Source of the DNA: Halosolutus halophilus
GTDB lineage: Archaea; Halobacteriota; Halobacteria; Halobacteriales; Natrialbaceae
Assembly: GCF_022869805.1 (NCBI RefSeq)
Contig: NZ_CP094974.1
Location: 3,286,001-3,350,000, forward strand
Reading direction: 5' to 3'
DNA length: 64,000 nucleotides
In this document: positions 51,594 to 63,508 of the stretch, one piece after another
How positions within the stretch are numbered: the first letter of the stretch is position 1
Layout: the number at the start of each line of letters is the position of its first letter
The notes under the pieces: model-generated
Seen by the model: only the letters and a program-made list of their open reading frames with translations
Told to the model about the DNA's origin: nothing
Databases searched by the model: none
Position numbers and translations under genes: made by a program

Positions 51594-51607
51594 TTAGGTG
51601 GGCTTAA
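51594..51607. promoter_or_regulatory. metal-repressor palindrome (operator 1, imperfect)
   Basis: TTAGGTGGGCTTAA, 26-39 nt before the ATG of the flippase gene. One half matches the TTAGG/CCTAA consensus seen at the four other sites; the other half reads GCTTAA instead of GCCTAA. The site coincides with the expected TATA position. Confidence 0.5.
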
Positions 51608-51632
51608 ATATCTGGGGTCGCAGCCTTCGAGC

Positions 51633-52874
51633 ATGAGCGGCGAGCGGGGGTCCCCGCGGATCGACGGCGAGCAGTCTGCCGTGCGGGAGAGGGGGGACGG
51701 GTCGGGAACGGGAGACGCCGACGGAGATGGGGCGACGTCGGGAGAGGTCGACGGAAATGGGGCGACGAACGGCGGCATCGCAGCGACGCTGACCCGACGC
51801 CGGGTGACGATCGCGGGCACGGTGCTCGTGGTCCTCGGCCTGGCCGTCGCTGTGCGAGAACTCGACGTCCGCGCGGTCACAGCGGAGGTCGCGACGGCCG
51901 ACCCGCTCGTGCTGGTCGCCGCGATCGCCGTCTACGCCGTCTCGTGGCCGGTCCGGGGTCGTCGCTACGGGTCGATCCTCGGATCGATCGGCCACCCGGC
52001 CGGGACGACGTTTCTCACGCTGGCCGTCTTCGTCAGCCAGACGGCCAACCTCGCGATCCCGGCGCGGGCGGGCGACGCGGTACGCGCGTCCGTCGTCAAT
52101 ACCTACCGGGACGTCCCCTACGCGTCGGGATTTGCCTCGCTGACTGTCGAGCGGGTCTTCGACCTGGCGTCGATCGCCGTCCTCGCCGGCGTCGCGATGG
52201 GGTGGCTGGCGATCGGTGGGGACACCGGCCCGCTCCAGATCGTCGCGGAGACCGGCGGCGCGCGAACCGCGTTCGTCGCCGCGGCGATCGTGAGCGCTGC
52301 GACCCTCGGGGTCGGGGCCGTCGTCGTGACGTCGGCCCGATCCAACTACGGGTACGGCGGGCGGCTCCGAGCGCGAATCCGCGGCGAGCCGCGGCTCGAA
52401 GGGGCGCTCGAGGCCGCCCTCCAGTTCGTGGCGGACGTCCAGATCGTCGCCCGCCAGCCGCGGGCGCTCGTCGCGATCGGCGGCGCGAGCCTGGCCGTGT
52501 GGACGCTGGACGTGCTCACAGCGGTGCTCGTCCTCGCGGCGCTCGATAGCGGCTTGCCCACCGGCACGCTGCTGGCGGTCGGCACCCTCGCGGTCAGCGT
52601 CGGGAACCTCGCGAAGGTCCTGCCGCTCTCCCAGGGCGGGATCGGCCTCTACGAAGCGGCGTTTACGGCCCTCGTCGTCGGCCTCACTCCCGTCGGCGCG
52701 AGCACGGCGCTGGCGGCCGCACTCGTCGATCACGCCCTGAAGAACGCGGTGACGCTGGTCGGCGGCACCGGCGCGGTCGCGTCGCTGGGCGTTTCCCTAT
52801 CGTCCGCCGCCGAGGAGTCCCGATCGAGCCGATCGGCGGAGACCGGCAACTTTTTAGGTTCACCTAAAAAATAG
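51633..52874 (+). CDS. UPF0104 / LPG-synthase-TM-like flippase protein
   Basis: 413 residues. After a 45-residue Gly/Asp-rich lead come about eight helices. LAVFVSQTANLAIPARAGDA is the TMH pair with the family motif N-x-x-x-P-x-R-x-G-D, and VGNLAKVLPLSQGGIGLYEA then DHALKNAVTLVGGTGA are the C-terminal blocks of LPG_synthase_TM (PF03706). Archaeal members, including the C-terminal half of AglD in Haloferax, are linked to dolichol-phosphate sugar handling or flipping. The last codons (NFLGSPKK) run across operator 2, so the downstream promoter lies inside this gene. Confidence 0.82.
   Translation: MSGERGSPRIDGEQSAVRERGDGSGTGDADGDGATSGEVDGNGATNGGIAATLTRRRVTIAGTVLVVLGLAVAVRELDVRAVTAEVATADPLVLVAAIAVYAVSWPVRGRRYGSILGSIGHPAGTTFLTLAVFVSQTANLAIPARAGDAVRASVVNTYRDVPYASGFASLTVERVFDLASIAVLAGVAMGWLAIGGDTGPLQIVAETGGARTAFVAAAIVSAATLGVGAVVVTSARSNYGYGGRLRARIRGEPRLEGALEAALQFVADVQIVARQPRALVAIGGASLAVWTLDVLTAVLVLAALDSGLPTGTLLAVGTLAVSVGNLAKVLPLSQGGIGLYEAAFTALVVGLTPVGASTALAAALVDHALKNAVTLVGGTGAVASLGVSLSSAAEESRSSRSAETGNFLGSPKK
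52851..52870. promoter_or_regulatory. metal-repressor palindrome (operator 2)
   Basis: TTTTTAGGTTCACCTAAAAA: 9-bp arms TTTTTAGGT and ACCTAAAAA around a 2-nt centre, 12-31 nt before the ATG of the GT75-like gene. It overlaps the expected TATA box and the last codons of the flippase gene. Confidence 0.75.
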
Positions 52875-52881
52875 GGCGGCA

Positions 52882-54105
52882 ATGAGTCAGGACATCTGCG
52901 TTATCGTGCCGACGATACGGGAGTACGAGTGCCTGCGTTCGTACTTCGAGAACGCCCGCGAGCACGGGTTCGACCTCTCGCGACTCCACGTCGTGCTCGT
53001 CACGGAGGATTTCTGCGAAACCGGGGAGATGGAAGCGATGCTCGCGGAGGAGGGCGTCTCCGGCGAGGTTTTCGACGGAACGCGCCGCGAGGAGTGGTAC
53101 GTCGACCACGGCGTCGCGGGGTACGGCCACGTCGTCCCGGCGGCGAGTCACGCCGAGACGAGTTTCGGGTTGCTCTACATGTGGGCCCACGACGAGTTCG
53201 ACTACGGCTTCTTCATCGACGACGACACGCTGCCCCACGAGGACGTGGACTTCTTCGGCACGCACATGCAAAATCTCGCGTTCGAGGGCGAGATCGAGGC
53301 GGTCTCCTCGGACGAGCGGTGGGTGAACGTCCTCTACCAGAACGCCGACGAACACGGACTCTATCCCCGAGGGTACCCCTACTCGGCGATGGACGAAACG
53401 ATCGAGACGGACACGACCGCGATCGCGTCCGGCGAGGTCGTCGCCTCGCAGGGGCTGTGGACCAACGTCCCGGACCTCGATGCCGTCCGTATTCTCATGG
53501 ACGGCGACCTCGAGGGGCAGGCCCAGACCCGGACGACTCGGGAGGACTTCGGCGAGGACTTCGTCGCCGCGCGGGGCAACTACCTCACCGTCTGCTCGAT
53601 GAACCTCGCGTTCCGCCGCGAAGTGATCCCCGCGTTCTACCAGCTGCCGATGGACGACAACGAGTGGAACGTCGGCCGCTTCGACGACATCTGGAGCGGC
53701 GTCTTCCTCAAGCGGGCCTGCGACGTACTCGGCAAGCGGATCTACAACGGAGCGCCGCTGTGTGAACACAACAAAGCCCCGCGCAGCACGTTCGACGATC
53801 TCAACAACGAAGTGCCGGGGCTCGAACTCAACGAACACCTCTGGCGCGTCGTCGACGACGTGGAACCGGAAGTTCCACGTGACGGTCGGACGGCGTCGCC
53901 GTCCGACGACGTGGGCGTCGACGCGGACTCCTACGCTGCCGTCTTCGAGGCGATGGGGAGCGAACTCGCACGCGGGGACTGGTCCGAGTACACCAACGGC
54001 GCGTTCTTCAACCACGTCGGCGAGTACATGCTCGACTGGCTGGACTGCCTCTACGCGCTCGATCGGCCGACGTCCCGTGCGGCGGAATCGACGGTTATAA
54101 GTTAG
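52882..54105 (+). CDS. reversibly glycosylated polypeptide-like (GT75) protein
   Basis: 407 residues. ICVIVPTIREYECLRSYFEN starts the fold, DYGFFIDDDTLPHEDVDFFG holds the metal-binding DDD, and YPRGYPYSAMDETIET is close to the plant RGP block (LFPRGYPYSLR). TVCSMNLAFRREVIPAFYQL and GRFDDIWSGVFLKRACDVLG continue PF03214. Plant members are UDP-arabinopyranose mutases and self-glycosylating proteins; archaeal members are often labelled 'alpha-1,4-glucan-protein synthase'. It is cytosolic, without signal peptide. Possible roles are UDP-sugar ring isomerisation or priming of a glycan. Expression is probably controlled by operator 2. Confidence 0.82.
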   Translation: MSQDICVIVPTIREYECLRSYFENAREHGFDLSRLHVVLVTEDFCETGEMEAMLAEEGVSGEVFDGTRREEWYVDHGVAGYGHVVPAASHAETSFGLLYMWAHDEFDYGFFIDDDTLPHEDVDFFGTHMQNLAFEGEIEAVSSDERWVNVLYQNADEHGLYPRGYPYSAMDETIETDTTAIASGEVVASQGLWTNVPDLDAVRILMDGDLEGQAQTRTTREDFGEDFVAARGNYLTVCSMNLAFRREVIPAFYQLPMDDNEWNVGRFDDIWSGVFLKRACDVLGKRIYNGAPLCEHNKAPRSTFDDLNNEVPGLELNEHLWRVVDDVEPEVPRDGRTASPSDDVGVDADSYAAVFEAMGSELARGDWSEYTNGAFFNHVGEYMLDWLDCLYALDRPTSRAAESTVIS

Positions 54106-54121
54106 TTTAGGCGAGCCTAAA
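54095..54121. promoter_or_regulatory. TATA box and metal-repressor palindrome (operator 3)
   Basis: TTATAA at 54095-54100 is a TATA box 26-31 nt upstream of the ATG. TTTAGGCGAGCCTAAA at 54106-54121 is a perfect palindrome with 7-bp arms around GA. It lies between TATA and the start codon of the iron-binding lipoprotein gene, in position to block polymerase. Confidence 0.75.
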
Positions 54122-54125
54122 AGAT

Positions 54126-55247
54126 ATGACGCGACACGACGGTTCGGTGGGCCGCCGGGCATTCCTCGCCGGTTCGGCCGCACTCGGTACGGCAGGAACG
54201 GCCGGTTGCCTCGGCCTGATCGGCAGCGAAGACGACGACGGCGAGAACGTCTTCGGCCAGATCGGTTCCGGCCGCGCGGGTCGGCCGGAACCCGGCGGTA
54301 CGCCGGTCGAGGAGTTACCGGATCTCGAGGGGGAACTCACCGTCTACTCCGGGCGCAGCGAGTTCCTCGTCGGTAGCCTCGTCGACGACTTAGAGGAGTA
54401 CTACGACGACTTCTCGATCGACCCCCGCTACGGCGACTCGTCGGACCTCGTCAACCAGATCCGCGAGGAAGGATCGGGAACGCCGGCGGACGTCTTCTAC
54501 ACGGTCGATGCGGCCGCACTCGGTGATCTCGCCGACAACGGACGGGCGAGCACGCTCTCCGACGACCTCCTGGAGATGGTCCGCTCGGAGTTCCGGACCG
54601 ACCAGTGGATCGGAACCTCGGGTCGCGCGCGGGCGATCCCGTACAACACGGACGCGCTCTCCGAGGACGACATGCCCGACAGCATCGACGCCTACGCGAC
54701 GGACTTCGACGGCGATCTCGGCTGGGCGCCATCCTACGGTTCCTGCCAGTCCTTCGTCACCGCGATGCGACTCCTCGAGGGCGAAGACGCCACCCGCGAG
54801 TGGCTCGAAGGCGTCGTCGACTCGGGTATCACCGACTACAACGACGAGTACGCGGTCTGCGAGGCGATCGCCAACGGCGAGATCGACGCCGGCTTCACGA
54901 ACCACTACTACGTCCAGCGGGTCCGCGACGGGTCAGACGACGCGCCGATCGCAACTTCGTTCACCGAGGGCGACGCGGGGTCGATCTTCGACGTCGCCGG
55001 TGCTGCCGTCACCGACGCGGCGGACGATCCGGACCTCGCGGAGAACTTCGTCCGCCACCTGCTCTCCTCGCAGGCCCAGGAGTACTTCGCCACCTCGACG
55101 TTCGAGTACCCGCTGATCCCGGGCGTGGAGCCGGTCGGCGACCTGCCGACGATTGACGAACTGGACGTCCCGGACCTCGATCTGTCCCGGCTGTCGGACC
55201 GTCAGCCGACGATCGACCTCATGCGCGAGGTCGGTATCAACACCTGA
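54126..55247 (+). CDS. ferric-iron-type ABC substrate-binding lipoprotein
   Basis: 373 residues. GRRAFLAGSAALGTAGTAGC is a Tat signal with lipobox; Cys29 would be lipid-anchored. The mature part has ELTVYSGRSEFLVGSLVDDL (YSGR of FbpA/IdiA proteins), LVNQIREEGSGTPADVFYTV, GTSGRARAIPYNTDALSEDD, LGWAPSYGSCQSFVTAMRLL and IDAGFTNHYYVQR (Tyr pair of the iron site). Such proteins bind Fe3+ and pass it to a two-domain permease. The permease likely to serve it is 6.6 kb downstream (61883), under operator 5. An ATPase is not in the window. Operator 3 overlaps its promoter. Confidence 0.88.
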   Translation: MTRHDGSVGRRAFLAGSAALGTAGTAGCLGLIGSEDDDGENVFGQIGSGRAGRPEPGGTPVEELPDLEGELTVYSGRSEFLVGSLVDDLEEYYDDFSIDPRYGDSSDLVNQIREEGSGTPADVFYTVDAAALGDLADNGRASTLSDDLLEMVRSEFRTDQWIGTSGRARAIPYNTDALSEDDMPDSIDAYATDFDGDLGWAPSYGSCQSFVTAMRLLEGEDATREWLEGVVDSGITDYNDEYAVCEAIANGEIDAGFTNHYYVQRVRDGSDDAPIATSFTEGDAGSIFDVAGAAVTDAADDPDLAENFVRHLLSSQAQEYFATSTFEYPLIPGVEPVGDLPTIDELDVPDLDLSRLSDRQPTIDLMREVGINT

Positions 55248-55299
55248 GCGCCCGCGAACGGTCACAGCACCCTGGTCAGTCACCCACTCTCGTCACTCC

Positions 55300-57582
55300 G
55301 TGATTCCCGATCCCCGCCGTTGGCTCTCCTCGTCGTCGTCCGTCGCGACTCGCCTCGCCGCCGTTCGCGGGCTCGCGGGCCGCGCTCGCTCGATCCTGCA
55401 CGGCCGCGTCCGCGACGGCGCCGATCGTGACCCCCTCTACGCGCTCTGTATCGCCGTCCTCGCGGGACTCGCCGTGTTCGCGCTCGCAACGGAACTGTTT
55501 CCGTACCACTCCAGTAACGACGACGAGGCCGTCTACCTGCTGCAGGCGGCCATGCTCCTCGAGGGGCAACTCGAACTCCACGCGGGCGATCTCGCCGGCG
55601 CGTTCCGACCGTGGTTCTTCGTCGAGGACGGAGGCCGACTCTACCCGAAGTACTCGCCCGTTCCGGCCGCGATGTACGCCGTGTCGATGGCGTTTTTCGA
55701 CGAGCCGCGCGTGACGCTGGCGGCCGTCGCGGCCGGCAACGCTGCGCTGACCTACGTCCTCGGTTCGATGGTGTTCGATCGACGGGTCGGCGCCGTCGCC
55801 GCGGCCGTCTTCGCCGCTTCGCCGATGGCCCTGCTCACGTCGTCGGTGTTCCTGCCGTACGCGCCGACGACGCTCCTGAATCTGGTATTCGCCGTCGCGT
55901 ACCTCCGCGGCGACCGTGACGGCCGCCTTCGCGACGCCGTCCTCGCGGGCGTTGCGATCGGCCTCGCCTTCTTCGCCCGTCCGTACACCGCCGTCCTGTT
56001 CGCCGCGCCGTTCATCTGTCACGCGTGCTGGTCGATCCTGCGGTCGGTGCGACGCGCCGAGGGACGGCCGCGAAGGCTCCGATCGCTCCCGAATCCGGCC
56101 CGGCGGAACGCGCTGACCGCCGCCGTCGGACTGGCGTTCGTCGGCGTCACGCTCGCGTACAACGCCCGGATCACAGGCTCGCCGCTGGTGTTCCCCTACG
56201 AGGCGTTCGCACCGCGTGACGGACCCGGCTTCGGGACCCGCGAAATCCTCGATCACTCGATCGAGTACACGCCGGCGCTGGCCCTCGAGACCAACGGCTA
56301 CGCCCTCTGGTACCTCACGACGCGCTGGTTCACCGCGGGCCCGATCGGGTCGATCGCCGCGCTCGCGGGACTCGGTCTCGCGCTGTGGCGGTGGCAGCCC
56401 GTCCCGCTCGATCGGTGGCGCGGGAGCGCCCCCTCCGCCGATTCGGCGTCCGTCGATTCGTCGGACGGTCGGACGGCGGGGCTCCTTCTCGCCGGCCTGC
56501 TGGTGACCGTTCCGCTCGGCAACCTCGCGTTCTGGGGGAACTTCAACGTGCTCGCGGGGATGACCGATCCCACGACTGGGCTCGTCTCCAGGTTCGGCCC
56601 CTTCTATCACTTCGACGTGCTCGTCCCCCTGTCGATCTTCGCTGGATTCGGCCTCGTGGCCGGCTGGCGGCGACTCCGCGACGGGGCGATTCGCGATCGG
56701 TTCGCCGCGTCGCGCTCGCCCCGCACGGTCCGTAGCGTCGTCCTCGCGGCGCTGGTAGCGAGCACGCTCGTCGTCGGCGTGGCCACCGTCGCTCTCCTCT
56801 CCGCGCCGATCGAGCGCAACGCGGCCCACACCGATCGGTTCGAGTCGGCCTACGAGCCGTTCGAGGAGCGCGACCTCGAGAACGCGCTCGTGTTCCAGCC
56901 GACGCCGTACGGCCAGTGGCAAAATCACCCGTTCCAGTCGCTGCGGAACGACCCCGATCTCGACGGTGCGGTGGTCTACGCGCTGGACGGCCCGCCAGAA
57001 CGGGACTTCGCGGTGCTCGACGCCTACTCCGACCGCGAGTACTACCGCTACACGTATCGCGGCGAGTGGACGGCCGTTCCCGACGATCCCGTCGTGCCGA
57101 AACTCGAACCGCTGTCGATTCGCCAGGGCGAGTCGCTCGCGGGCGAGACGGTCGTCGGCGTTCCCGATCGGGTCGATCGAGCGGTAGTTCGCCTCGAAAA
57201 CGAGAGCGGCGCGACGGCCACCTCCCGGATCGACGATCCGGGGAACTCGATCGCGGTCGAGTGGGCGCTCGAATCCGGTGCCGACGAGAGCACCGCCACA
57301 GCACGGCTGGCGGCCACCGAGAACGCGACGATCCCGCTCGACCCGACCGACGAAGTCGTACTGGAGATCACGCTGGTCCAGTTCGACGGCGCGACGTTCA
57401 CGTACCGGCAGGCAGCGCCCGTCCGGGCGACCGACGACGGGATCAGGGTCGTCTGGCCGCCCGAGCGGACGAGCTGTGCGCTGGTCACGGACTGCGATCG
57501 CGAGGGAACCTATCTTCCCGACCGCCCGGACACCCACCGCGAGTGGGAATCGTTCGAGACGCGGCTCGAGCCGCGAGGGTAA
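55300..57582 (+). CDS. GT-C type membrane glycosyltransferase-like protein
   Basis: 760 residues from GTG 55300. The first luminal loop has HSSNDDEAVYLLQAAMLLEG, with an acidic DDE near the end of helix 1 as in GT39/ArnT/DUF-type dolichol-phosphate-dependent enzymes, followed by about 11-12 helices (for example VAAAVFAASPMALLTSSVFL, LAGVAIGLAFFARPYTAVLF and AVGLAFVGVTLAYNARITGS). A C-terminal soluble domain (about residues 515-760) is outside. It would transfer a lipid-linked sugar to an acceptor; the sugar and acceptor are unknown. It begins 52 bp after the iron-binding lipoprotein gene without its own operator, so it is probably in the same transcript. Confidence 0.75.
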   Translation: MIPDPRRWLSSSSSVATRLAAVRGLAGRARSILHGRVRDGADRDPLYALCIAVLAGLAVFALATELFPYHSSNDDEAVYLLQAAMLLEGQLELHAGDLAGAFRPWFFVEDGGRLYPKYSPVPAAMYAVSMAFFDEPRVTLAAVAAGNAALTYVLGSMVFDRRVGAVAAAVFAASPMALLTSSVFLPYAPTTLLNLVFAVAYLRGDRDGRLRDAVLAGVAIGLAFFARPYTAVLFAAPFICHACWSILRSVRRAEGRPRRLRSLPNPARRNALTAAVGLAFVGVTLAYNARITGSPLVFPYEAFAPRDGPGFGTREILDHSIEYTPALALETNGYALWYLTTRWFTAGPIGSIAALAGLGLALWRWQPVPLDRWRGSAPSADSASVDSSDGRTAGLLLAGLLVTVPLGNLAFWGNFNVLAGMTDPTTGLVSRFGPFYHFDVLVPLSIFAGFGLVAGWRRLRDGAIRDRFAASRSPRTVRSVVLAALVASTLVVGVATVALLSAPIERNAAHTDRFESAYEPFEERDLENALVFQPTPYGQWQNHPFQSLRNDPDLDGAVVYALDGPPERDFAVLDAYSDREYYRYTYRGEWTAVPDDPVVPKLEPLSIRQGESLAGETVVGVPDRVDRAVVRLENESGATATSRIDDPGNSIAVEWALESGADESTATARLAATENATIPLDPTDEVVLEITLVQFDGATFTYRQAAPVRATDDGIRVVWPPERTSCALVTDCDREGTYLPDRPDTHREWESFETRLEPRG

Positions 57583-57673
57583 TGTGCGACACGGAAGACG
57601 AATCGTGCGTTCTCGGCCACTCGTCGCACAGTTCAGGCACCACCGTTAGGAATCGGCTGCCGGTACGAACCGT

Positions 57674-58717
57674 ATGTCCGACGATCGCTGCGGCCACGTC
57701 GCGAACATCAGCGGTATCGGCGACAAGGGATCAGTCTGTTGCTGGCGATCCGTGTGGCGCGAGACCGATCGGTGCATCTGGCACACGGACAGCACGGTTC
57801 CGGCGCCGGCCTACGAGCAAAATCGTCCGAAAGCGGGCGAACGACTCGACGGCGCGAACTTGCGTCAGGCGCCGCTGAGCGGGTCGGACGTTCTGGCCGA
57901 CTGCTCGCTCGTCGACGCCGACTTCACGGGTGCGACGCTGGACCGCGCCGATCTCTCCGAGACCGACCTCCGTCGGGCGACGTTCCGGGACGTCGACGCT
58001 CACGGGACTTCCTTTCGGGACGCGAACCTCCACGACGCGGTGTTCGTCTTCGCCGACCTCCGCAGTGCCGATTTCCGCGGTGCGAGACTCTACCGCGCGG
58101 GGCTGACCGACGTCCGACTCAACCTCGAGACGGCGTTCGACGAGCGGCCGGTCTACGAGGACGAACTCTCCGGGGAACCGTCCACGGACGAGATCACCGA
58201 ACGGGCCGAATCCGCACGGTGGGTCTACCGGGAACTCCAGCGCCTCTACGAGGAAAACGCGTTTTCCGAGCGCGCTATCGACTACTACGTTCGGGAGATG
58301 GACCTGCGGCGGCGACAGGCGTGGCGTGTCAGGAACTATCTGGTCGCGCTCAAATTCGCCGGCTCCCGCTGGATCATGCGCTACGGGACGAGTCCCTGGC
58401 GGGTCGTGACGGCGTCGATCCTCTTGATCCTCTTCTGTGCGGGCCTGTTCCCGCTCACGGGCGGTATCCAGGAGGTGGGGGCCGACACCGCCGTGACCTA
58501 CCGGGTCGAGGATCCGACCGAGACGCCCGGCGGGGTCCTTCTCCGGGCCTTCTTCAAGAGCCTCTACTTCAGCGTTATCACCTTCGCCACGCTCGGGTAC
58601 GGTGACATCCAGCCGGTCGGAAGCTGGGCGCGGGCGATCGCCGGGGTCGAGACGATGCTCGGCTCGCTGCTGATGGCGCTGCTGGTGTTCGTCCTCACTC
58701 GCAGCGTCCGCTTCTAG
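57674..58717 (+). CDS. pentapeptide-repeat protein fused to a K+ channel pore
   Basis: 347 residues. Residues 55-150 form pentapeptide repeats (GANLRQAPLSGSDVLADCSL, then DADFTGATLDRADLSETDLR and RDANLHDAVFVFADLRSADF), a right-handed beta-helix. A helical linker (about residues 165-225) leads to a two-helix pore: VVTASILLILFCAGLFPLTG, P-loop YFSVITFATLGYGDIQPVGS with selectivity filter TLGYGD, and TMLGSLLMALLVFVLTRSVR. The N-terminus has a Cys/His cluster (CGHVAN, CCW, CIWH). Gating by something sensed through the beta-helix or Cys cluster is inference. It lies 92 bp after the GT-C gene, perhaps cotranscribed. Confidence 0.85.
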   Translation: MSDDRCGHVANISGIGDKGSVCCWRSVWRETDRCIWHTDSTVPAPAYEQNRPKAGERLDGANLRQAPLSGSDVLADCSLVDADFTGATLDRADLSETDLRRATFRDVDAHGTSFRDANLHDAVFVFADLRSADFRGARLYRAGLTDVRLNLETAFDERPVYEDELSGEPSTDEITERAESARWVYRELQRLYEENAFSERAIDYYVREMDLRRRQAWRVRNYLVALKFAGSRWIMRYGTSPWRVVTASILLILFCAGLFPLTGGIQEVGADTAVTYRVEDPTETPGGVLLRAFFKSLYFSVITFATLGYGDIQPVGSWARAIAGVETMLGSLLMALLVFVLTRSVRF

Positions 58718-58721
58718 GGGC

Positions 58722-59480
58722 TCACCGGAACCGCTCCTCGAGACAGACTTTGACGATCGACTTCGCGATGGCGGCGCCGCCCTGTACGGGGTCAAGTTTG
58801 GTCTCGCCGGCGCGTTCGCGGTACTCGATCGGGCGCTCGCGGACGTCGTAGCCCCGCATCAGCGGCCGAATGAGGAGTTCCGCGGAGAGGCCGGTGTTCT
58901 CGGTCCACTCGATCGACTCGACCACGTCGCGGCGGTACGCGCGCATCCCGGTCGTCGTGTCGTGCACCCGGGTGCCCATCAGGACGCTCGCGATGGCGGC
59001 GAAGGCGTGGTTGCCGAATCGGTTGAAGGCGGGCATCGCCTCCGCGCCGTGGTAGAGACGATCGCCGCTGACGACGTCGTAACCATCGTTGATCAACTCG
59101 AGGAACTCCGGGAGCTGTTCCATCGGATAGGTGTCGTCGCAGTCGGTCGTGACGACGATCGGTCGGTCCGGTTCGAGGATCGCCGCGCGGACCGCGACGC
59201 CGTATCCCTGGGGTCGCTGCGTGACGACCGTCGCCCCGTGTTCGCGGGCGATCTCCGGCGTGCGGTCCGAGGAGCCGTCGACGCAGACGACCTCCGCCTT
59301 CCCGTCGGTGATCGCTTCGATGTCCGAGAGCACCGTGCCGATCGCTTCCTCCTCGTCGTACGTTCCCATCACGACGCTGACGTCCTCGAAGGTGTAGGCG
59401 TCCCCGTCGGCGTCCTGGCCCCCCGTCGTGGTCTCCGTGTCGTCCGCGTCGTCTCCGACGCGCCCGTCTGCGCGACTCAT
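58722..59480 (-). CDS. GT2 glycosyltransferase, dolichol-phosphate sugar type
   Basis: 252 residues. FEDVSVVMGTYDEEEAIGTV is the first strand, EVVCVDGSSDRTPEIAREHG the second, IVVTTDCDDTYPMEQLPEFL gives the DxD (DCDD), and DTTTGMRAYRRDVVESIEW then ERPIEYRERAGETKLDPVQG are typical of archaeal Dpm1/AglD-like enzymes. They make dolichol-phosphate-hexose at the cytoplasmic face. An acidic 30-residue start precedes the domain. Operator 4 sits 31-48 nt upstream of the ATG (59480). It converges with the channel gene. Confidence 0.88.
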   Translation of the reverse strand: MSRADGRVGDDADDTETTTGGQDADGDAYTFEDVSVVMGTYDEEEAIGTVLSDIEAITDGKAEVVCVDGSSDRTPEIAREHGATVVTQRPQGYGVAVRAAILEPDRPIVVTTDCDDTYPMEQLPEFLELINDGYDVVSGDRLYHGAEAMPAFNRFGNHAFAAIASVLMGTRVHDTTTGMRAYRRDVVESIEWTENTGLSAELLIRPLMRGYDVRERPIEYRERAGETKLDPVQGGAAIAKSIVKVCLEERFR

Positions 59481-59504
59481 TGACGGTACTCTCTGCCCGG
59501 CGCA

Positions 59505-59528
59505 CTTATATTTTAGGTTCGCCTAAAA
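59505..59528. promoter_or_regulatory. metal-repressor palindrome (operator 4) with TATA
   Basis: TTTTAGGTTCGCCTAAAA at 59511-59528 has 7-bp arms TTTTAGG and CCTAAAA. On the minus strand it directly precedes and overlaps AAATATAAG (TATA, 25-33 nt from the GT2 ATG). Confidence 0.75.
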
Positions 59529-59543
59529 CGACGAGTGTGACGA

Positions 59544-61193
59544 TCAGAGCGCGTCGAGAACGTGATCCGCGGCCTTCAGCGCGAGCGCGGCGATCGTCAG
59601 CGTCGGGTTCATCGCGCCGGCGGTCGGGAAGACGCTGCTGGAGGCGATCCAGCAGTTCTCGAGGTCGTGCGTCCGGAGACCCGGGCCGACGACGCTCTCC
59701 TCCTGGTCCGACCCCATCCGGGTCGTTCCCATGTGGTGGTACGCCGGCCCGGTGTCGTCGGGGCCCGCTCGCCAGGTGATCTCCGCGCCGAGTTCCTCGA
59801 GGATCCGCTCCTGGACCTCGTTCGCCCGTTCGATCGTCCGCAGCGCCCGATCGCCGACGGTCCAGTGGACGTCGGGGACGGGATTGCCGCGGTCGTCTGT
59901 CCGATCGGGATCGAGCGCGACGTAGCTGTCCTCGCGGGGGAGTTGCTCGACGAGCGCGCCCAGGCCCACGTGGGTGCCGTACTCCCCGCGAAGCCGATCG
60001 AGGAGATCGTCGCCCCAGTCGTCGCCGGTGAGTGCCGTCTCGACCGGCGAGGGGCCGGCGTAGTTGAAGAACTCGAGTTTGAACGGGCCGACCTCCGCGT
60101 CGGCGTCGTCGTAGAACTGGTGGCACTCGCTGGTCAGGAAACCCACGTGATTCTGGCGCGTCGGTTCCTCGAGCGTGCCGCCCATCCCCGCGAACAGGTG
60201 GTCCATGAAGAACTGGCCGACGAGACCGCTCGAGTTAGCCAGCCCGTCGGGGTAGTGGCTCGAATCCGACAGTAACAGGAGCCGCGGGGTCTCGACGCCG
60301 CCACAGGCGATCACGAAGGCGTCGGCTTCCTGGCGGTGCTCCTGATCGTCCGGGGTGGCGTAGACGGCCGCCTCGATCGCGTCGGGCCCGTGCTCGAGAC
60401 GCTGGACGGGCGCGCGATCGATCACCGTCGCGCCCCGCCCCTCGGCGCGCTCGACGTGGACGGTCGCGTCGTACTTCGCGCCGGAGGGGCAGACCGGCTG
60501 ACAGGTCCCGTAACCGACGCAGGCGCTTCGACCGTCGTAGCTCTCCGAGTTGCGCGCGTTCGGCACCGAGTGCATCGCGATCTCGAGTTCCTCGCAGGCC
60601 TCCGCGAACAGCCCGTCGCTGTAGGAGGGCGGGAAGGCGGGCATCGGATGGGGGTTCTGGCGGGGCGGCGCGAAGGGGTTGTCGTCGGCCCCCGCCACGC
60701 CCAGTTCCCGTTCCGCCTCGGCGTAGTACGGTCGGAGATCCTCGTAGTCGATCGGCCAATCCGTTCCGACTCCGCGGGCGCTCCGGGACTCGAAGTCGTC
60801 CTCGTGGAGGCGCATTACCATCCCCTGCCAGTGCAGCGTCGACCCGCCGACGCCCTTGACACGGGTGTGGTTCAGCGGGTAGAACCAGTCGCCGCTCGCC
60901 GAGTGGGCGTCACGCTCCGGGTCGCCGTCCCAGACGGCCGGGCGATCGTAGGCGGGCCGGATCGCCCGCTCCTGGCGCGCGAGGCGATCACCGGGATCGA
61001 ACCGCGGCCCGGCCTCCAGGATCACCACCTCGAGTCCGGCCGCGACCAGTCGATCGGCGACCAGTCCGCCGGCCGGCCCGGCACCGACGACGCAGACGTC
61101 GGCGTCTTCGACCGGCGTCCGATCGACGTCGTCGGCGTCGCTCTCCGCGTCCGCCGGACCCGCGCTCTCGGCGGGCGGCCGATCGGCGCTCAC
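59544..61193 (-). CDS. GMC-family oxidoreductase (gluconate dehydrogenase large-subunit-like)
   Basis: 549 residues from GTG 61193. DVCVVGAGPAGGLVADRLVA is the FAD-binding GxGxxG, then GVGGSTLHWQGMVMRLHEDD, and SACVGYGTCQPVCPSGAKYD has the C-x5-C-x3-C block of membrane gluconate/sorbitol-type dehydrogenases, perhaps an iron-sulfur site. YHHMGTTRMGSDQEESVVGP with NCWIASSSVFPTAGAMNPTL is the catalytic His region (H...N). It overlaps the stop of the upstream small subunit (GTGA), so it is translationally coupled. It lacks a signal and probably exits by the Tat system with the small subunit. Substrate unknown. Confidence 0.88.
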   Translation of the reverse strand: MSADRPPAESAGPADAESDADDVDRTPVEDADVCVVGAGPAGGLVADRLVAAGLEVVILEAGPRFDPGDRLARQERAIRPAYDRPAVWDGDPERDAHSASGDWFYPLNHTRVKGVGGSTLHWQGMVMRLHEDDFESRSARGVGTDWPIDYEDLRPYYAEAERELGVAGADDNPFAPPRQNPHPMPAFPPSYSDGLFAEACEELEIAMHSVPNARNSESYDGRSACVGYGTCQPVCPSGAKYDATVHVERAEGRGATVIDRAPVQRLEHGPDAIEAAVYATPDDQEHRQEADAFVIACGGVETPRLLLLSDSSHYPDGLANSSGLVGQFFMDHLFAGMGGTLEEPTRQNHVGFLTSECHQFYDDADAEVGPFKLEFFNYAGPSPVETALTGDDWGDDLLDRLRGEYGTHVGLGALVEQLPREDSYVALDPDRTDDRGNPVPDVHWTVGDRALRTIERANEVQERILEELGAEITWRAGPDDTGPAYHHMGTTRMGSDQEESVVGPGLRTHDLENCWIASSSVFPTAGAMNPTLTIAALALKAADHVLDAL

Positions 61194-61720
61194 GGCTCCG
61201 GCCCCCGCTGGTAGGTGTCGACCCCGCCGGCGTGGCCCTGTGGGTTCTCGATGCCGACCAGTTCGCCGCCCGTCGGCGACGCGTACAGCGCCAGCAGGAG
61301 TTCGTTGACGACGTAGTAGCGCACCCGCTCGGCGGTCGTGCCGTCGGGATCCTCGTCGGCGGTGTCCGACCCGACCTCGCGCAACAGCGAGTCGCGATCG
61401 GCCGCGGAGAGATCGGCGACGGCGTCGCCGTACCACTCCGCCGACAGCCGTTCGAGGTCGGCGACCGCCTCGCGCAGTCCCCGAGCGTGTCCGGGGTCGT
61501 CCAGTCGTCCCTCGAGGAACGCCTCGACGAACGTCGCCGTCCCGGTCACCGCGTCGGGGTAGACGACTTCGGCGACGGCGACCAGCGTTTCGCGGACCTG
61601 CCCGTCGTCGACCGTGGGCGCATCCGCCGATCGACGGGACCGACGGAGGCCGACCGCGGCCGCGCCGCCGGCACCGAGCGCGGCCAGCGCGGCGGTCGCG
61701 TCTCGCCTGGTCAACTCCAT
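61190..61720 (-). CDS. gluconate 2-dehydrogenase subunit 3-like protein
   Basis: 176 residues. MELTRRDATAALAALGAGGA is a Tat-type signal (TRRDA). The mature part (VDDGQVRETLVAVAEVVYPD, then VTGTATFVEAFLEGRLDDPG, ERLSAEWYGDAVADLSAADR and RVRYYVVNELLLALYASPTG) matches PF13618, the small subunit needed for export and activity of the GMC-type large subunit. It overlaps the large subunit gene by four nt. Operator 5 separates its start from a TATA on the minus strand. Confidence 0.82.
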   Translation of the reverse strand: MELTRRDATAALAALGAGGAAAVGLRRSRRSADAPTVDDGQVRETLVAVAEVVYPDAVTGTATFVEAFLEGRLDDPGHARGLREAVADLERLSAEWYGDAVADLSAADRDSLLREVGSDTADEDPDGTTAERVRYYVVNELLLALYASPTGGELVGIENPQGHAGGVDTYQRGPEP

Positions 61721-61728
61721 ATCGCGGA

Positions 61729-61750
61729 TTAGGCAAACCTAAACCTTATA
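61729..61750. promoter_or_regulatory. metal-repressor palindrome (operator 5) in a divergent promoter
   Basis: TTAGGCAAACCTAA at 61729-61742 lies between the small-subunit ATG (61720, minus) and TATAAGGTTT (minus-strand TATA, 61741-61750). It also stands upstream of the Fe3+ permease gene on the plus strand, so one operator may control both transcripts. Confidence 0.7.
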
Positions 61751-61882
61751 CCCGTTGGAACGAGTCCGTCGAAATACGGACCCGTAACGGTGGCGCAGCG
61801 TTCGGCGATCGCGGTACCGGATTCCGGGACGAACCGATCGACACTTGCCGTTCACGGACCGAGAGTCGACAACTCGAGATAC

Positions 61883-63508
61883 ATGAAATCGCTTGCTCCG
61901 CTTCGGCGGTTCGACGCAGCCGACGACGTGCCGCTCGGGCTGGCGCTGTTGTCCGGCGCGATCGCCGCGAGCATGATCCTTCCGCTGACCTGGCTGCTCT
62001 TCGAGGCGAGACGGGTGGACCCCGCCCGTGCCCGGGAGATGCTCGTCCGCCCGGAGACGGTGGACATCATCACCAACAGCCTCCTGCTGATGGCGTCGGT
62101 GACCGTCCTGTCGGTGCTGATCGGCGTGCCACTGGCGTGGCTGACCGTCCAGACGGATCTCCCGTTCCGACGCTTCTGGTCGATCGTCGTCGCGTTGCCG
62201 CTCGTGGTCCCGAGCTACATCGGGGCGTTCGCGTTCGTCTCCGCGTTCGGCCCGCGAGGCGAGTTCCAGTCGATCCTCCAGCCGTTCGGGATCGAACAGT
62301 TGCCGGAGATCTACGGGCTCCCCGGTACGACGCTGGTTATCACGCTCTACACCTATCCCTACGTCTACCTCACGACCCGCGCGGCCCTGCTGTCGTTCGA
62401 CACGACGCTGCTCGATGCCGCTCGAACGCTCAACCACGACGAGTGGGACGCGTTCCGCCGGGTGACGCTCCCGCAGATCCGCCCGGCGATCGTCGCGGGT
62501 GCCCTGCTCGCGGCGCTGTACGGCGTCTCGGACTTCGGGACCCCGGCGATCATGCAGTTCCCGGTGTTCACGCGACAGATCTTCGTCGAGTACAACAACG
62601 GCGGACTGGACTACGCGTCGTTGCTCTCCCTGCAGTTGCTCGCGATCGTCCTCGTCGTGCTGGCCCTCGAGTGGTGGGTGCGGCCCGATCGAACGATCCG
62701 GGGCGACGGTGCGGAGGGATCACACGAACCCGTGGTCTCGCTGGGCGTCTGGCGCTGGCCGGCGGCGGCGTTCCCTGCGGCGGTCACGACCCTCGCGCTC
62801 GCCGTCCCGATCTGGATCCTCGGGCTCTGGATGGTCACCGCCGATCCGTACGCGCGACAGACGCTGGCGTTCGAATTCAGCTACGCGCTGAACTCGGTGC
62901 TGGTCGCCACGGCGGCCGCGATCGTCGCCGTCCTCGCGGCGTTGCCGGTCGCGTACTTCGCGGCGCGATACGAGTCGCTGGTGGCGGTGGTGTTCGAGCG
63001 AGCGACGTACGTCGGCTTCGCCGTGCCGGGGATCGTCCTGGGGCTCGCGCTCGTCTACTTCGCGACGGGCTACGACTCGCTCGACCTCGCCTACGCCCCC
63101 GCGCTCTACCAGACGCTTCCGCTGCTCGTGTTCGCGTACGTCGTCCGCTTCATGCCCCAGGCCGTCGGCTCGATCCGGACGACCACGCTCCAGGTCGATC
63201 CGCAACTGGTCGAAGCCGCGCGGACGCTCGGCGAGACGCCGCTGCGGACCTTCCGGAAGATCACGCTCCCGCTCGTCACGCCGGGCGTGACCGCTGGCGC
63301 CGCGCTCGTGTTCCTGACGACCATGAAAGAGCTTCCGGTGACCCTGATCCTCCGTCCGAGCGGGTTCGAAACCCTCGTGACGATCATCTGGCGAGCCCAG
63401 GAAGCCGCCTACTTCCAGTACACCGCGATTCCGGCGTTCCTCCTGCTCGCCGTCTCCGGACTCTCGATGCTCGTGCTCCTCTCGCAGGGCGGGCGCGAGG
63501 GGCTGTAG
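61883..63508 (+). CDS. Fe3+-type ABC transporter permease (fused two-domain)
   Basis: 541 residues from ATG 61883; a GTG at 61790 would add 31 poorly conserved residues. About 12 helices in two repeated permease units, as in FbpB/AfuB. EAA loops are DAARTLNHDEWDAFRRVTLPQ (first) and EAARTLGETPLRTFRKITLP (second); PSYIGAFAFVSAFGPRGEFQ and FSYALNSVLVATAAAIVAVL are other landmarks. It imports iron delivered by the lipoprotein at 54126. The ATPase that should accompany it is missing in the following 490 bp, where an unrelated SRAP gene converges. Operator 5 is upstream. Confidence 0.88.
   Translation: MKSLAPLRRFDAADDVPLGLALLSGAIAASMILPLTWLLFEARRVDPARAREMLVRPETVDIITNSLLLMASVTVLSVLIGVPLAWLTVQTDLPFRRFWSIVVALPLVVPSYIGAFAFVSAFGPRGEFQSILQPFGIEQLPEIYGLPGTTLVITLYTYPYVYLTTRAALLSFDTTLLDAARTLNHDEWDAFRRVTLPQIRPAIVAGALLAALYGVSDFGTPAIMQFPVFTRQIFVEYNNGGLDYASLLSLQLLAIVLVVLALEWWVRPDRTIRGDGAEGSHEPVVSLGVWRWPAAAFPAAVTTLALAVPIWILGLWMVTADPYARQTLAFEFSYALNSVLVATAAAIVAVLAALPVAYFAARYESLVAVVFERATYVGFAVPGIVLGLALVYFATGYDSLDLAYAPALYQTLPLLVFAYVVRFMPQAVGSIRTTTLQVDPQLVEAARTLGETPLRTFRKITLPLVTPGVTAGAALVFLTTMKELPVTLILRPSGFETLVTIIWRAQEAAYFQYTAIPAFLLLAVSGLSMLVLLSQGGREGL

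Follow-up and report, generated by a model that had tools for sequence, protein, structure and literature searches.

Why should one short palindrome stand at the promoters of ferric iron import genes and of sugar-handling genes along the same stretch of an archaeal chromosome? The window analysed here is a 64,000-nt stretch of Halosolutus halophilus contig NZ_CP094974.1, and the locus in question occupies positions 51594-63508 of it, where five sites of the form TTAGG-N4-CCTAA accompany genes for a ferric iron importer, for a putative glycan pathway and for an exported dehydrogenase. In our judgement it is quite probable that this locus is an iron regulon under a DtxR-family (IdeR-like) protein, linking the import of Fe3+ to a surface glycan that contains furanose and to oxidation of that glycan, and that it is so across the order. 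The sites and genes are as follows.

51594-51607, plus strand: operator O1, TTAGGTGGGCTTAA, one mismatch, fused with the TATA box of UPF0104
51633-52874, plus strand: UPF0104/LPG_synthase_TM flippase-like membrane protein (PF03706, 4e-38; TIGR00374 flippase-like, above cut-off)
52854-52867, plus strand: operator O2, exact, ahead of GT75
52882-54105, plus strand: GT75/RGP protein, probable nucleoside diphosphate (NDP)-pyranose mutase (PF03214; PDB MtdL 7yua/7xpr, 1.3e-26)
54107-54120, plus strand: operator O3, exact, ahead of FbpA
54126-55247, plus strand: FbpA, Fe3+-binding lipoprotein of the twin-arginine translocation (Tat) type (PDB ferric-binding protein 7w3w, 5.7e-57)
55282-57582, plus strand: GTC, GT-C fold glycosyltransferase with C-terminal DUF7846 (PMT_2 + DUF7846); start uncertain, probably GTG at about 55300
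57674-58717, plus strand: pentapeptide-repeat and ion-channel protein, absent from most loci
58722-59480, minus strand: GT2, dolichyl-phosphate hexose transferase (NF041391, 414 bits against a curated cut-off of 375; PDB Dol-P-Man synthase, 2.7e-17)
59513-59526, minus strand: operator O4, exact, ahead of GT2
59544-61202, minus strand: GMC flavoprotein of the flavin adenine dinucleotide (FAD)-glucose/fructose dehydrogenase type (PDB glucose dehydrogenase, 1.1e-107); start probably GTG 61199
61190-61720, minus strand: GDH3, gluconate-2-dehydrogenase subunit-3-like, with Tat signal (PF13618, 6.9e-9)
61729-61742, strandless: operator O5, exact, between the divergent promoters of GDH3 and FbpB
61790-63508, plus strand: FbpB, Fe3+ ATP-binding cassette (ABC) permease (BPD_transp_1); start possibly ATG 61883

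The exact palindromes in the window are the four that start at 52854, 54107, 59513 and 61729; the fifth is the imperfect one at 51594. All five had been listed in the initial annotation, three of whose coordinates were off by 1-3 nt. Shuffled windows would be expected to hold 0.13 such sites, and none of 100 shuffles gave five. Operator and start codon are separated by 25 nt at UPF0104 (ATG 51633), 14 nt at GT75 (52882), 5 nt at FbpA (54126) and, on the minus strand, by 32 nt at GT2 (59480) and 8 nt at GDH3 (61720); the gap from O5 to FbpB is 47 nt if the start is GTG 61790, while the conserved alignment favours ATG 61883. These gaps of 5-47 nt, together with operators that overlap or adjoin TATA-like elements, agree with the annotated placement 5-48 nt before start codons at TATA boxes. 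O1 is imperfect because its right arm, CTTAA, merges into the UPF0104 TATA box (CTTAAATAT), and this variant is kept in homologous loci, where the UPF0104 operator has the CTTAA form in 39 of 63 cases and the exact arm in 24 of 63.

The arrangement extends far beyond one strain, a point on which the initial annotation had staked its proposal. At the family level 57 of 125 genomes carry the GT75 gene, and at the order level 294 of 392 do, representing 72 of 95 genera. We inspected 100 neighbourhoods, made up of 20 family genomes and 80 named loci (among them Natrinema, Halorubrum, Haloarcula, Natronomonas, Halorussus, Halonotius and Halovenus); some species belong to both sets, which makes the counts partly dependent on one another. 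A strain-specific island is rejected on these figures. Counting an operator when it lies within -200..+20 of a gene, we find an exact site before GT75 in 98 of 100 loci, and an operator before FbpA in 91 of 99, before UPF0104 in all 63, before GDH3 in 63 of 73 and, at no more than one mismatch, before GT2 in 85 of 86 (exact in 66). None precedes the genes that served as negative controls (GTC 0/99, GMC 0/64, Cct 0/16 and ABC49 0/32 loci). The homologous loci, 1.99 Mb in all, hold 360 exact sites, whereas 29 control palindromes with permuted arms average 0.07, and a scan of spacers from 0 to 15 returned only N4 (360) and N12 (5). The arms are near-invariant, as is the T/A that directly flanks them, while the N4 bases vary across genera, a pattern that fits a selected operator.

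The genes also travel together. Of the 125 family genomes, the same 57 contain orthologues of GT75, GTC and GT2, and GMC is present in those 57 and three others. Linkage accounts for part of this co-inheritance. In genus g2, however, GMC is 65-70 kb away from GT75 or on a separate contig and still has a palindrome about 500 nt upstream, a distance consistent with GDH3 lying between; this argues that the genes have more in common, in function and control, than their position. Two further variants of the locus were seen. Genera g2, g7 and g3 (L063-L065) carry a diverged form without UPF0104 and with two tandem operators 26-30 nt apart before GT75. The slot between the conserved GT75 and GT2 is occupied by either of two FbpA/GTC lineages (about 45% versus about 70-90% identity; window 54126-63508 versus L052-L057, L059 and L060), the alternative lineage having FbpB relocated beside FbpA; the importer has here been replaced and the regulation retained.

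Elsewhere in the single-contig 5.06-Mb genome the operator is rare. There are nine exact copies in all, against one for a reversed-pattern control, and four of the nine are clustered within 9 kb at the window locus; a random scatter, which had been named as a test of the proposal, is not what the genome contains. The copies outside the window are at promoters too, among them those of an Fbp-type ATPase and a siderophore ABC transporter.

L001: exact operator ahead of the Fbp-type ATPase gene (C1:1155873 locus)
L008 and L009: exact operators ahead of siderophore-type binding-protein/ATPase and permease genes
L007 (G000:C1:4341024): exact operator between a DUF7090/DUF7504 gene and a class I methyltransferase gene
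L002: exact operator ahead of a small open reading frame (ORF) beside dps

Operators are thus found at the core promoters of FbpA, FbpB, the Fbp-type ATPase and the siderophore ABC genes, all concerned with iron uptake. The FbpABC ferric importer set is complete, with binding protein and permease at the locus and the ATPase encoded elsewhere under its own operator. As to what binds these sites, a proposed revision of the IdeR/DtxR target replaces the 19-bp palindrome with the 14-bp TTAGGNNNNCCTAA, occupied by one dimer (PMC8464063), and the window motif is identical to this revised consensus. Genes at C1:2304464 and C1:381675 encode the two proteins of this genome that combine both DtxR-family Pfam domains; one has 226 aa with a FeoA domain, the other 145 aa with a Cys-rich tail. 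The gene for the 226-aa protein, which is SirR-like (L066), has a different palindrome (TTTAGGGTTAGACCGCTCTAAA) just upstream of its start codon, perhaps reflecting autoregulation through another motif.

Some of the sites outside the window drew separate observations. The DUF7090/DUF7504 and methyltransferase genes that flank L007 are candidate members of the iron regulon. Beside dps, tandem DtxR-type operators (L002/L180, G000:C1:1512274-1512313) precede a conserved 55-aa DUF7331-like ORF, and this double-operator stretch is kept in 98 of 125 family genomes; a small RNA under iron control was considered for this place and dropped, since the sites precede that ORF, on the other strand.

What, then, would the glycan genes make? 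The annotation of a GT75-like protein holds for the family, but the activity is most probably that of a pyranose-furanose mutase acting on NDP-sugars and not that of a transferase. The residues shown to be important in MtdL, namely DDD 109-111, R159, D195, S228, R257, D260 and H287 (PMC9937993), align respectively with DDD113-115, R163, D198, S239, R266, D269 and H296 of GT75, all invariant in 16 homologues, so that the DDD motif, reactive Arg, base Asp and Mn-binding His of a mutase are present. The complete MtdL sugar site is not, with D87 aligned to H90 and Q229 to M240, and the GT75 sugar may therefore differ from that of MtdL. The matching PDB entries are named only 'Transglycosylse' and are taken to be MtdL from residue numbering that agrees with PMC9937993; a further PDB match is uridine diphosphate (UDP)-arabinopyranose mutase. 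GT2 belongs to NF041391, the NCBIfam equivalog for the haloarchaeal dolichyl-phosphate hexose transferase. The AlphaFold model of GTC (mean confidence, pLDDT, 82.6) gave 29 Foldseek matches at E <= 0.001 with TM-scores of 0.2-0.6, among them remote ones to AglB, ALG9, ArnT and AftA/Emb, and is that of a GT-C fold of the polyprenyl-phosphate-sugar transferase type. GTC is apparently co-transcribed with FbpA, whose Tat motif and lipobox are conserved. The channel fusion that had been counted among the controlled genes falls away: it is patchily present, has no operator in any of the eight loci that carry it, and is rejected as a member of the module.

The oxidoreductase pair consists of two genes as annotated, and can be specified further. 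The nearest relatives of GMC are the large subunits of FAD-glucose and fructose dehydrogenases, and it has a Cys triad, C228-x5-C234-x3-C238, that is invariant in 13 homologues and sits at the position of the [3Fe-4S] cluster of glucose dehydrogenase. GDH3 is marked by a twin-Arg motif, (T/S)RRDA, which each of the 21 translated homologues has close to its N-terminus. The pair thus resembles, in sequence, the large subunit and Tat-signal small subunit of an FAD/[3Fe-4S] sugar dehydrogenase. No CxxCH motif of a cytochrome c subunit was present among the 12 gene products examined between 47.2 and 63.9 kb.

From the sites, their conservation, the gene families and their co-inheritance we infer a binding protein, iron as its signal, a direction of regulation and a set of enzymatic activities that would work together as follows. 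When iron is replete, a metal-bound DtxR dimer would occupy TTAGG-N4-CCTAA, over or next to the TATA box, and block transcription; when iron is scarce the repressor would be released and three functions would be made together. The first would be Fe3+ import through the FbpA lipoprotein and FbpB permease, with the ATPase supplied from its own operator elsewhere. The second would be a surface or lipid-linked glycan, for which GT75 would convert NDP-pyranose to NDP-furanose, GT2 would load a hexose onto dolichyl phosphate, UPF0104 would flip the lipid-linked sugar and GTC would transfer sugar on the outer face. The third would be oxidation of sugar outside the cell by Tat-exported GMC and GDH3. 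The initial proposal of a DtxR-type regulon that links iron import with a lipid-linked glycan thus finds support in the genome-wide sites, the order-wide conservation and the enzyme families. One published observation agrees with this picture: the UPF0104 protein HVO_1859 of Haloferax volcanii rises 11.6-fold in iron starvation (PMC11349517). It may be a paralogue of the UPF0104 protein of the locus, since a candidate Haloferax-like genus has a GT75-FbpABC-GTC operon without adjacent UPF0104.

Several points weigh against an iron regulon of this kind. The DtxR family also includes Mn and Zn sensors. GT75 needs Mn2+ (PMC9937993). An iron-sulfur cluster, which GMC probably has, is unexpected in an enzyme made at low iron. 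The GT75 module is missing from about half of the family and is accordingly not essential to haloarchaeal life.

The purpose of such a regulon would most likely be a cell-surface glycan that helps to capture or hold Fe3+ for FbpABC. A more specific form of this, in which a furanose-containing, enzymatically oxidised surface glycan or glycolipid binds Fe3+ and passes it to FbpABC, a cell-bound glycan siderophore under DtxR control across the order, is a speculative suggestion that we consider improbable as it stands. The strongest competitor, which we find possible but doubtful, is that what the glycan enzymes decorate is the importer itself or other surface proteins, as by O-glycosylation of the FbpA linker, with no separate iron-binding glycan. 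In the loci inspected, GTC comes after FbpA (or FbpAB/ABC) and lacks an operator of its own, its fold resembles those of protein glycosyltransferases, and FbpA linkers are rich in Ser/Thr in some relatives. However, the FbpA of this strain has no N-glycosylation sequon, for which reason N-glycosylation of FbpA was dropped, and GT75, UPF0104, GT2 and GMC together seem too many for a single modification.

It is less probable that GMC/GDH3 is the centre of the system, converting extracellular sugar to Fe3+-chelating acids or lactones, or passing electrons to Fe3+ for reductive mobilisation, with the glycan as substrate or accessory. Kinship to the dehydrogenases of glucose and fructose, together with a Cys triad of the [3Fe-4S] type, would suit this, as would the conserved Tat signal of the small subunit and the lack of a CxxCH protein among the locus genes, but FbpA-type importers accept Fe3+ and not Fe2+. 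We give still lower credence to the same DtxR-type regulon sensing manganese, or both metals, with the glycan genes tied to manganese or to general envelope stress instead of iron capture: manganese sensors within the family and the Mn2+ need of GT75 speak for it, whereas the operators stand at Fe3+ and siderophore transporters and their motif is the consensus of the iron sensor IdeR. That the palindromes are chance or coding artefacts, and the neighbours without common control, is refuted, for although some operators overlap long spurious open frames, the sites are strongly enriched over shuffles, reversed pattern and permuted arms, keep a strict spacer and hold fixed promoter positions while N4 varies across genera.

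How does an iron regulon of this composition compare with systems already described? Haloarchaeal Idr1/Idr2, SirR, TroR and ferR regulons have reportedly been treated by Schmid 2011, Martinez-Pastor 2017/2024 and Leyn and Rodionov 2015, to which PMC11349517 and PMC11218638 refer; they share with the locus DtxR-family control of iron uptake, and the locus probably lies within that network. The IdeR/DtxR iron regulons of Actinobacteria share the 14-bp TTAGGNNNNCCTAA (PMC8464063), the promoter placement and an iron uptake target, but here the promoters are archaeal TATA promoters, the palindromes are single-dimer sites rather than a 19-bp double site, and a glycan pathway is among the targets. 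Neither the operator nor the type of regulator is new. For a conserved coupling that ties both an exported sugar dehydrogenase and a glycan pathway of furanosyl/dolichyl type to an iron regulon we found, provisionally, no description in a comparison that left aside the principal haloarchaeal regulon papers. Such a coupling would give function to poorly assigned haloarchaeal proteins (archaeal GT75, UPF0104, DUF7846 GT-C and GMC/GDH3), and it predicts a low-iron surface glycan that could be tested directly in Haloferax volcanii, a genetic model with an RGP (PF03214) gene. Conservation of the operators suggests that synthesis of a sugar coat is part of how these archaea cope with low iron.

The enzymes, too, have known counterparts. 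GT75 shares the DDD motif, reactive Arg, Asp base and Mn-binding His with the mutases MtdL/Hyg20 and plant UAM/RGP (PMC9937993), and differs from MtdL in the replacement of D87 and Q229 by H90 and M240. GMC and GDH3 reproduce the Cys-triad GMC large subunit and Tat-signal small subunit of FAD-glucose/fructose dehydrogenase complexes, but the locus is without their cytochrome c subunit. Haloarchaeal dolichyl-phosphate glycosylation by AglJ, AglD and AepG (PMC9943897) follows the same logic of a GT2 dolichyl-phosphate-sugar synthase with flippase and GT-C enzyme, whereas the GT2 of this locus forms a separate family (NF041391) and lies inside an iron regulon.

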